45,617 nucleotides of DNA, taken from Methylotenera oryzisoli. GTDB taxonomy: Bacteria > Pseudomonadota > Gammaproteobacteria > Burkholderiales > Methylophilaceae. The stretch spans positions 1 to 45,617 of the forward strand of contig CAMDXI010000010.1 in the NCBI GenBank assembly GCA_945878695.1, in the 5' to 3' direction. Numbering within the stretch: position 1 is the stretch's first letter; each line of letters begins with the position of its first letter. Below, piece by piece: positions 39,228 through 45,267 of this stretch. A program made the position numbers and the translations under genes. Under the pieces are notes generated by a model. The model did not search any database and was not told the DNA's origin. It saw only the letters and a program-made list of their open reading frames with translations.

Positions 39228-39248
39228 GGCTGAGGCGGCCATTTTTTT
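39228..39248 (+). terminator. Weak terminator of pssA
   Basis: GGCTG-AGG-CGGCC (five pairs, one G-U) followed by A and seven T bases. It lies 14 bases past the pssA stop and directly before the leuA promoter. Confidence 0.4.
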
Positions 39249-39250
39249 AC

Positions 39251-39279
39251 TTGCGAAACCGACTAAAACCCACTATATT
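39251..39279 (+). promoter_or_regulatory. Promoter of the leuA leader transcript
   Basis: TTGCGA (39251-39256) and TATATT (39274-39279), 17-base spacing. The predicted start falls at about 39286-39288, so the first ATG of the leader ORF is nearly at the 5' end and leuA has an untranslated region of about 270 bases. Confidence 0.65.
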
Positions 39280-39288
39280 TCTACCACT

Positions 39289-39408
39289 ATGTTGAATATC
39301 TCCATTTCAAACACCGCATTTTTTCTGGCTTTATTGACCAGTGCTTTGCTATTGCGCAAATTAGCCGCCTTGCGCGCTGCTAGTTTACGCACGCAAAAAC
39401 TGCGCTAG
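39289..39408 (+). CDS. Leu-rich 39-residue leader ORF upstream of leuA
   Basis: Translates as MLNISISNTAFFLALLTSAL followed by LLRKLAALRAASLRTQKLR, with 11 leucines among 39 residues (including the run of three at 20-22) and a basic end. It has no Shine-Dalgarno sequence; the predicted transcript starts within a few bases of its ATG, so it could be translated as a leaderless message. Its last codons form one arm of two alternative stems. These features fit an attenuation-type leader peptide for leucine synthesis. A small membrane peptide is the alternative. Nothing shows that it is expressed. Confidence 0.4.
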   Translation: MLNISISNTAFFLALLTSALLLRKLAALRAASLRTQKLR

Positions 39409-39499
39409 CGCGCAAACTAAACCTCCCCAAACTACCGTTAATGTCTGTGTCTTGCATGATAAAAATGCAAGCAGGTGCTATTATTTGAGCTCATGCAAG
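39370..39499 (+). promoter_or_regulatory. leuA 5' leader with two sets of mutually exclusive stems
   Basis: Set one: TTGCGCGCT (39370-39378) pairs perfectly with AGCGCGCAA (39407-39415), but the latter also pairs with TGCGC (39401-39405) as a short hairpin. Set two: CTTGCAT (39451-39457) pairs with ATGCAAG (39465-39471), or, extended to CTTGCATGA (39451-39459), with TCATGCAAG (39491-39499) over nine pairs. Both sets lie between the leader ORF's end and leuA. No T run follows any stem, so a standard intrinsic terminator is not seen. Confidence 0.45.
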
Positions 39500-39556
39500 T
39501 GGGCGTCAACGTAGCGAAATTTAGTGAAGAAAAAACCAAAAAATTAGGAAACTGTG

Positions 39557-41110
39557 ATGAAACAGGGTAACAAGCAAGCCGATCAAATTATTATTTTTGA
39601 CACCACTTTGCGCGATGGCGAACAAAGCCCCGGTGCGGCGATGACCAAAGAAGAGAAAATTCGCATCGCTAGGCAATTAGAAAAATTGGGCGTGAACGTC
39701 ATTGAGGCGGGTTTTGCCGCCGCCAGCCCAGGCGATTTTGAGGCCATTTCTGAAATCGCCAAAATCATTAAGCAGTCCACTGTTTGTTCGCTAGCCCGTG
39801 CCAGCGAGAATGACGTGCGTCGGGCCGGTGAAGCAATTAAGCATGCCGCCAGTGGCCGCATACACACGTTTATCGCGACCAGCAAAATTCACATGGAAAA
39901 CAAATTGCGCATGAGCGAAGACCAAGTGGTTGAGCGTGCCGTGCAAGCGGTGAAATGGGCCTTGGAATACACCAAAGACGTGGAGTTTTCTGCAGAAGAC
40001 GCGGTGCGTTCGGACATGGACTTTTTGGTGCGGGTGTTTGATGCGGTGATCGCGGCTGGTGCTACCACCATTAACGTACCCGACACGGTTGGTTACTCTA
40101 TCCCGGCACCTTGGGGCGAGCGCATGCGCGATTTAATTGCACGCGTGAAAGACAGCGACAAAGTGGTCTGGTCTACCCATTGCCATAACGATTTGGGCAT
40201 GGCCGTGGCCAACTCCTTGGCTGCCGTTATGGGTGGCGCGCGACAAGTGGAATGCACCATCAACGGCTTAGGCGAACGCGCCGGCAACGCCAGTTTGGAA
40301 GAAGTGGTGATGGCTTTGCGCACGCGTCGCGATGTGTTTCACCTTGAGACCAGCATTGATGCCACGCAAATCGTGCCTACCAGTAAATTGGTGTCCACCA
40401 TCACCGGCTACCCGGTGCAACCGAATAAAGCCATTGTCGGTGCCAATGCCTTTTCGCATGAATCCGGCATACACCAAGACGGCGTGCTTAAACACCGCGA
40501 AACCTATGAAATCATGCGTGCCGAAGACGTGGGCTGGGGCGCCAACAAATTAACTTTGGGCAAATTGTCTGGGCGCAATGCGTTTAGAACGCGTTTAAAA
40601 GAATTGGGCATAGAGTTGGCCACGGAAGATTTGTTGAACGCCGCGTTTGCCCGCTTTAAAGATTTGGCCGATAAAAAATCGGAAATTTTTGATGAGGATT
40701 TGCACGCTTTGGTCAGCGATGAATTCTTATCTGTGGCCACCGAGCATTTTAAATTGGTCTACTTGCAAGTGGCATCGGTGACCGGTGAAGTGCCGCATGC
40801 CAGCATCACCTTGTCCGAAAATGGCCAAGAAAAACGTGCCGAAGCCAGTGGCGGTGGTCCAGTGGATGCAGCGTTTAAAGCCATAGAAAGCATTGCCAAC
40901 AGTGCCGCCGAATTGCAGTTGTATTCGGTTAACAACATTACCAGTGGCACCGATGCGCAAGGTGAAGTGACGGTACGCTTATCGAAAGGCGGCCGCATCG
41001 TTAATGGACAAGGTGCCGACACCGACATTGTGGTGGCCTCAGTAAAAGCGTATTTAAATGCGCTGAATAAAATTCAGTCCAAATCGGAGCGGGCTCACCC
41101 GCAGGTTTAG
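39557..41110 (+). CDS. leuA: 2-isopropylmalate synthase LeuA
   Basis: First committed step of leucine synthesis, condensing acetyl-CoA with 2-ketoisovalerate. The 517-residue protein has the catalytic barrel [30 protein letters not shown] (metal His ligands), and [24 protein letters not shown], then a linker and the C-terminal domain that binds leucine as feedback inhibitor. AGGAA lies six bases before the ATG at 39557; a GTG immediately before it is a less likely start. The leader ORF and stems precede it. Confidence 0.97.
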
Positions 41111-45191: not shown

Positions 45192-45267
45192 GGGGCGTTA
45201 GCTCAGCTGGTAGAGCAGCGGACTTTTAATCCGTTTGTCGTGGGTTCGATCCCCGCACGCCCTACCA
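45192..45267 (+). tRNA. tRNA-Lys (anticodon UUU)
   Basis: A 76-base cloverleaf with encoded CCA. Anticodon loop CTTTTAA has TTT at 45225-45227. D arm GCTC...GAGC, T arm with the GGTTCGATCC signature, and close alignment with E. coli tRNA-Lys throughout. The first acceptor pair reads G1-U72 (GGGGCGT against ACGCCCT) rather than the usual G-C. Own promoter upstream and a strong terminator immediately downstream make it a single-gene unit. Confidence 0.97.

Follow-up and report, generated by a model that had tools for sequence, protein, structure and literature searches.

A leucine-rich, probably leaderless leader ORF upstream of leuA in Methylotenera oryzisoli and its relatives

In Escherichia coli and other enterobacteria, the leuL leader is initiated from a Shine-Dalgarno (SD) sequence and is coupled to an intrinsic terminator with an antiterminator. 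In the classical 1:2 hairpin, the control codons lie in the 5' arm and the stop codon lies in the loop. Other designs have been reported. In Streptomyces lividans, LeuL1 is a leaderless leader of 15 codons with a Leu run, which lies directly before leuA and is described there as being without a typical Rho-independent terminator (PMC8079986); actinobacterial leuA regions also contain the LEU element, a pseudoknot in which Leu codons and the leuA SD form the base stem (PMC1262725). The transcript of Sinorhizobium meliloti trpL starts at the leader ATG, and its products, rnTrpL and peTrpL, act in trans; this system concerns tryptophan and includes a transcription terminator (PMC7298713). Salmonella speF is preceded by orf34, an Arg-sensing uORF that has an SD and no intrinsic terminator, together with a CU-rich putative Rho site and a hairpin past the stop codon, the ribosome at this codon determining whether it forms; speF, an ornithine decarboxylase gene, starts at nucleotide 516, and the system joins the uORF with both Rho and mRNA decay (PMC6386406). 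Finally, Campylobacter jejuni LeuL, which has 28 codons with five C-terminal Leu codons and precedes leuABCD, is translated according to TIS profiling (PMC3847290, PMC11955535). Leaderless mRNAs are common in the Burkholderiales: in Cupriavidus metallidurans, 4.67% of the primary starts are reported to be of this kind (PMC7563307), and 114 leaderless transcripts, 24 of them tRNAs, are given for Burkholderia cenocepacia (PMC4603805).

The locus considered here lies in a 45,617-nucleotide stretch of Methylotenera oryzisoli DNA (GCA_945878695.1, contig CAMDXI010000010.1; hereafter, the window), which comes from an assembly of 1.39 Mb that is 86% complete. Among named records, the closest LeuA is that of a Methylotenera MAG (98% identity), which puts the window in or near this genus of the Methylophilaceae. 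Between pssA (NCBIfam TIGR00473) and leuA there is an ORF with 11 Leu among its 39 codons, three of them consecutive (Leu20-22), which ends in a TAG stop at 39406-39408 (Table 1). As in enterobacterial leuL, a Leu-rich leader peptide is positioned ahead of a leucine biosynthesis gene; unlike leuL (Rfam Leu_leader), the locus has no SD for this ORF and no terminator or antiterminator signal. The first-pass annotation had remarked that a leaderless leucine leader would be a distinct design, which holds against enterobacterial leuL; it does not hold more widely, given the reported precedents of LeuL1 (PMC8079986) and trpL (PMC7298713). The locus resembles LeuL1 in that a Leu-rich leader, here predicted to be leaderless, immediately precedes leuA and in that no typical terminator is present; it differs from the actinobacterial loci in its longer ORF, in having a hairpin over or beside the stop codon and a C-rich tract, and in belonging to another phylum, and the likeness is put forward as one of layout. 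S. meliloti trpL is likewise proteobacterial, with a transcript start at the leader ATG close to the one predicted here. By analogy, the nearest worked-out parallel found is Salmonella speF, even though the amino acid and the sign of control are different there. C. jejuni LeuL differs in that it was identified by a search requiring a ribosome binding site and in that its Leu codons are rare. With Rfam, the whole window gives only a tRNA at 45192-45264 and 38 further loci give nothing at the gathering score; at E values up to 10, the segment 39200-39620 gives two chance-level hits.

Table 1. Features of the pssA-leuA interval and leuA, in window coordinates
Feature	Position	Strand	Basis
-35 box TTGCGA of the leader promoter	39251-39256	+	Sequence; CTTGC (39250-39254) at least 90% conserved, 39255-39256 variable (47 same-genus sequences)
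-10 box TATATT	39274-39279	+	Conservation of 90% or more in every column across the 47 sequences of the genus
Predicted transcription start, 3-nt 5' UTR	39286	+	Predicted from the -10 position
Probably leaderless leader ORF, 39 codons, MLNISISNTAFFLALLTSALLLRKLAALRAASLRTQKLR	39289-39408	+	ORF conserved in relatives; codon-level selection in relatives
Run of three Leu codons (TTG CTA TTG), probable control codons	39346-39354	+	Read from sequence; probable role
Candidate hairpin A within the ORF, GCGCAA-10-TTGCGC	39354-39375	+	Read from sequence; class-level excess over null
Hairpin B, TGCGC-TAGC-GCGCA, stop codon in loop	39401-39414	+	Stem scores against shuffles; conservation
C-rich, G-poor tract, rut-like	39415-39438	+	Composition; putative Rho-binding site
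Hairpin C, CTTGCAT-7-ATGCAAG, without U tract	39451-39471	+	Downstream hairpins exceed shuffles as a class
Second promoter-like site ATGATA-17-TATTAT, TG before -10 (extended -10)	39456-39484	+	Moderate conservation within genus
SD AGGA of leuA	39546-39549	+	Read from sequence
leuA, 2-isopropylmalate synthase, leuA_bact family	39557-41110	+	NCBIfam TIGR00973 above cut-off

The DNA upstream of leuA was compared at 149 usable loci, L116 and L068 (contig end, no scored candidate) having been left out before counting. When the -10 box was used in choosing the ATG, a leader was accepted in 115 of the 149: 47/48 loci of the same genus, 56/81 of other family members, and 12/20 of other families of the order. 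This is a lower count; 33 loci were excluded by hand for a best-scoring ORF that overlapped pssA or was not leader-like, and one of these, L071, has a leader by eye, as does L068. The ORF is likewise recovered in 47 of the 48 same-genus loci when the search starts from the ORF end and takes no account of the -10 box. Among the best-conserved columns between pssA and leuA in the 47-sequence genus alignment are CTTGC, TATATT, the ATG, CTGCGCTAG, and GCGCA, each at least 90% conserved. Within the genus, heterozygosity at the three codon positions is 0.34, 0.27, and 0.48; pN/pS, taken over 601 of 1081 pairs, has a median of 0.60, near saturation. For other genera, three groups of peptides matched in length give pN/pS values of 0.28 (8 sequences), 0.26 (13), and 0.33 (6). 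Low pN/pS in the other genera and the greater variation at third positions make translation of the leader ORF very likely. In two groups of genera, conservation of the peptide is not confined to the Leu codons, and by these comparisons selection acts on more of it than those codons, although part of the conservation is at the nucleotide level because the last codons also build hairpin B. The alignment of relatives proposed in the first-pass annotation has come out in favor of the ORF, and we hold with great confidence that it is a translated leader that acts on leuA.

The σ70-type leader promoter (TTGCGA-17-TATATT), like the length of the ORF and its Leu run, is as first described. The ATG at 39289 lies 9 nt past the -10 box; if transcription begins 7 nt after this box, A39286 would be the first nucleotide and the 5' UTR would be ACT (3 nt), in line with the two to three bases originally estimated. 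There is no SD-like sequence ahead of the ORF in the window, compared with AGGA ahead of leuA, which lies 138 nt from the leader stop. This lack of a ribosome site, pointed out at the outset, extends to the relatives: none of the 115 leaders has an SD-like 4-mer (AGGA, GGAG, GAGG, AAGG) at -16 to -4, and a wider set of SD motifs occurs within 55 nt before the leader ATG in 18/115 compared with 87/115 before leuA. When all in-frame ATGs were considered, a -10 box ended 5-10 nt ahead of one in 47/47 loci of the genus, 47/56 of other family genera, and 41/42 of the order, where the genus, the family, and 12 of the 42 order loci had been preselected using the -10 box; 12 of 24 loci from other gammaproteobacterial families gave the same result, and control windows set farther upstream yielded 0-6 such cases. 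With one exception, the 115 leaders have a predicted 5' UTR of 0-4 nt. Given this conserved spacing, RNA polymerase would start about 3 nt ahead of the ATG and a 70S ribosome would initiate at the 5' end without an SD, and in all likelihood the leader is leaderless.

Two further sites lie near the leader promoter and leuA. A terminator-like hairpin followed by a T run is present at 39228-39248, after pssA and just ahead of the leader -35 box. The promoter-like site at 39456-39484 is a possible second leuA promoter; if active, it would bypass the leader and make leader control only partial. A stretch resembling this site is retained in L032, a close relative without the leader.

A short translated ORF that is rich in the regulated amino acid and is positioned before a biosynthesis gene is the general mark of a leader peptide, and it is what is found here. 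Leu makes up on average 24.3% of the residues in the 115 leader peptides versus 13.0% in shuffles of their bases, and both the Leu richness and the recurrence of the ORF in same-genus loci are more than chance. As had been noted, the Leu codons of the window leader are mixed (TTG 5, TTA 3, CTG 2, CTA 1); rare Leu codons are not enriched in it, its usage matching that of the neighboring genes (TTG 44%, TTA 26%). We consider it likely that the leader senses leucine. The ORF might instead encode a functional small membrane protein with no part in leuA control, as could be suggested by the genus peptides (35 to 56 codons), which, as read from the alignment, have a largely hydrophobic N-terminal half and a basic C-terminal part. 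However, the peptides of other genera are short and by eye not membrane-like (e.g. MHFSTHIATLHSTFSLLAALLLRGAR), the features that stay constant across genera are Leu-Arg close to the peptide end and hairpin B, and there is no match to Pfam for the window peptide or to NCBIfam for five leader peptides. A membrane protein is thus a most improbable explanation.

The top-conserved block of the element, CTGCGCTAG-CGCGCA, folds into hairpin B, a structure over the stop codon that the first-pass annotation did not contain. When the best hairpin near the stop was taken at each locus and shuffles were treated identically, the mean score was 15.0 for the 115 leaders and 6.7 for dinucleotide shuffles; 96.5% of the leaders scored at least 12, compared with 17.4% of the shuffles. 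Taken singly, only 34 of the 115 copies beat all 30 of their own shuffles. In other clades the stop codon lies 2-3 codons further downstream (LLLR-PAR, LLLR-ASAH) and the hairpin stays put. In other gammaproteobacterial families, 23/24 leaders score at least 12, compared with 22% of shuffles, with stems that differ from the betaproteobacterial ones (CTGCC/GGCAG, GCCGC/GCGGC, TGCCC/GGGCA, and others). When stem positions are counted from the loop in 55 representatives, at least three pair types occur at every position; since these hairpins were preselected for pairing, this documents a variety of stems and is no formal test of covariation. RNAalifold, run on a mixed alignment of 96 segments, gave three pairs with zero two-sided changes and did not recover hairpin B, because this hairpin lies in different registers across clades. 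The whole-leader fold of the window copy is of ordinary stability (z -0.67). Taken together, the hairpins lying upstream of B score a little higher than under a synonymous-codon null (14.3 versus 12.2), and some lineages have stems of 10-12 bp, of differing sequence, within the ORF upstream of hairpin B.

An inverted repeat of this kind could also be a DNA operator for a leuA regulator, the ORF being incidental, and the palindromic core GCGCTAGCGC is indeed strongly conserved in the genus. Yet the repeat, whose sequence differs by clade, keeps both its pairing and its place where the ORF ends, and codon-level selection acts on the ORF itself; we regard an operator as highly unlikely.

Immediately past hairpin B, 93% of 148 loci (3 gammaproteobacterial, the others from Burkholderiales) have a value of C minus G above 0.15, compared with 4% at 60-90 nt. 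In the Burkholderiales this C-rich tract spans 20-30 nt after the hairpin, with a predicted unpaired probability of 0.78-0.86. RNA that is C-rich, G-poor, and unstructured and that the ribosome is able to lay bare is what characterizes a Rho-dependent attenuator; such RNA is found in the Burkholderiales and is far weaker in the gammaproteobacterial relatives. The motif GTAGTACC occurs exactly about 20 nt past hairpin B in 9/148 loci versus 0.05 expected and is absent from most; its carriers, which include L146, L151, L155, L175, and L264, are betaproteobacterial together with one gammaproteobacterial locus. Among 24 gammaproteobacterial loci (L266-L294), 13 have a different motif, CCTGGCGAGG, with at most one mismatch, past the leader stop.

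The geometry of hairpin B, with control codons in the 5' arm and the stop in the loop, resembles that of a classical 1:2 hairpin, and a downstream hairpin is present (for hairpin C at the class level, 16.4 versus 11.6 in shuffles). Attenuation could accordingly be of the classical kind, with hairpin B as the 1:2 pause hairpin, hairpin C as an intrinsic terminator, and a 2:3 antiterminator switch. Against this, terminator-like sites are no commoner than chance, being found in 13 of the 148 loci versus 10.7 expected (the window copy, L001, is outside the 13) and in 4/24 gammaproteobacterial leaders versus 2.1 expected. In addition, the 3' arm of hairpin B is not clearly more complementary to the downstream sequence than shuffles are, whichever of six groups is taken (12.8 versus 12.7 in the genus). 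A classical design does find a parallel outside the class: among 29 further leuA loci of a phylum sample, 11 have Leu-run leaders, all from one family, and at least 8 of these (L308, L310, L312, L315, L317, L320, L322, L323) have by eye a GC hairpin with a T run. This arrangement looks like a leaderless classical attenuator, and its sequence suggests that classical termination is used in that family. The same eight loci have a TTTAAT-like box about 7 nt ahead of the leader ATG. For the leader of the window and its relatives, classical termination is unlikely.

Because the classical switch lacks this support and a rut-like tract is present, Rho is the likeliest terminator by elimination, a tentative assignment that we hold at slightly less than even confidence. 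Under a Rho-dependent mechanism, the ribosome would read the Leu-rich frame and, on the last codons and the stop, would be in or beside hairpin B. With ample leucine, it would finish and be released, so that hairpin B could re-form and the C-rich tract behind it would be exposed; Rho would then load on the bare tract, and transcription would stop near hairpin C, ahead of leuA. When charged Leu-tRNA is scarce, a ribosome stalled on the Leu codons beside hairpin B would hinder Rho, and leuA would be transcribed. The sequence supports the promoter spacing, the absence of an SD, translation-type selection, hairpin B, the open C-rich tract, and the linkage to synthase genes; from these we infer the start site, the leucine signal, Rho, and the sign of control, the last being assumed because the role of leuA is biosynthetic. 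As a whole, we judge probable the reading in which leuA has a leucine-responsive attenuator, perhaps working via Rho, and the ORF is its leaderless leader peptide.

The distribution of the element was followed with a covariance model of 72 nt built from 96 sequences, which at E ≤0.01 gives 111 matches, in 109 of 300 order-level genomes. The 30 best of these 111 matches all lie just ahead of a LeuA homologue, 29 of them at 68-87% identity and one at 25%; 27 of the 30 are outside the training set, the genomes G203, G058, and G050 having given training sequences. Seven further matches, picked by place, all precede isopropylmalate synthase genes, of the leuA_yeast type for L324-L329 and of the first family for L330. 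The synthases of L324 and L328 are leuA_yeast by NCBIfam (TIGR00970), and the remaining four were assigned by reading the sequence. The leader thus also stands ahead of a second, distantly related synthase family in L324-L329 (G113, G114, G199, G049, G059, G438), and G113 and G438 have one leader before each of the two families.

An isopropylmalate synthase gene is therefore downstream in all 37 inspected order-level matches of the 111, which argues for action in cis. This bears on the suggestion that the leader works on translation, on mRNA decay, or in trans through a small RNA or peptide, rather than by termination before leuA. A peptide product would fit the two groups of genera in which the peptide is conserved outside its Leu codons as well; leaderless leader products that act in trans are reported for S. 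meliloti (PMC7298713), and a link to mRNA decay is reported for speF (PMC6386406). Action of this type is nonetheless improbable here. The original proposal of a leaderless Leu-rich leader of leuA, itself worded as probable, is supported by the conserved promoter-ATG spacing, the lack of an SD, the codon-level selection, and this synthase linkage.

At the class level, a scan of 276 genomes with the model matches the window's own genome and four others; three of these matches lie before leuA, and L262 is false. By eye, L264 and L265 have a -10-like box 6-7 nt ahead of the ATG, and L263 has a weak box. The other families of the class were represented by 29 LeuA loci, the best LeuA matches among 105 genomes with LeuA and not a random draw; 24 of them have an ORF that is Leu-rich at its C-terminus (L268 doubtful) and five have no Leu-rich ORF. 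The leader is far from universal among leuA loci, because just 28 of 80 named loci pass the leader cut-off and 40 score lower; the other 12, which include Gallionella and Thiobacillus, fall just below it (17.5-17.8) and have leader-like peptides.

Losses of the leader are also seen among close relatives. The first-pass annotation had taken relatives in which leuA is intact and the ORF is interrupted as grounds for giving up the leader. This is in part what is seen, as relatives with leuA and no leader do exist: G173 (L032/L181), a close relative whose LeuA is 98% identical, is one, and the others are Methylophilus methylotrophus and M. rhizosphaerae (L197, L192), 9/12 loci of genus g39, 3/3 of g44, and 11 loci of the small g26 and g40 genomes. 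In these lineages, however, it seems that the whole element is missing, and not that the ORF is broken. As read from the sequence, several loci without the leader have a promoter-like sequence just ahead of leuA. In five such loci of the Methylophilus-like g39 (L072, L073, L074, L077, L079), pssA is followed by a GC hairpin and T run, and TGGTCA-17-TAAAAT, a promoter-like sequence, lies directly ahead of leuA.

Leaderless leucine leaders are already known from the Actinobacteria (PMC8079986), and the present leader is not new in kind. A survey of open-access full text gave no leaderless leucine leader before leuA in beta- or gammaproteobacteria among the matches listed. What appears to be new is the hairpin at the stop codon, the spread over beta- and gammaproteobacteria, the association with two synthase families, and the lack of an Rfam or NCBIfam match among the sequences tested. 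A broader reading is that these loci represent an old leucine attenuator, found across many families of beta- and non-enteric gammaproteobacteria, which combines a leaderless 70S start with a stop-codon hairpin gating Rho in place of an intrinsic terminator and serves two distantly related synthase families; we put this forward tentatively, as possible and still rather doubtful.

If it were true, leucine attenuation in many Proteobacteria would depart from the textbook enterobacterial design, and enterobacterial leuL would be a special case instead of the rule. Leaderless initiation being sensitive to the state of the ribosome pool, the switch might then report ribosome status besides leucine. 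The loci provide many natural replicates of an apparently leaderless ORF, each of which has to be translated, and in them the coupling of leaderless initiation to transcription, and the stopping of RNA polymerase without an intrinsic terminator, become testable, and the leader supplies a missing family for the annotation of RNAs and small proteins.
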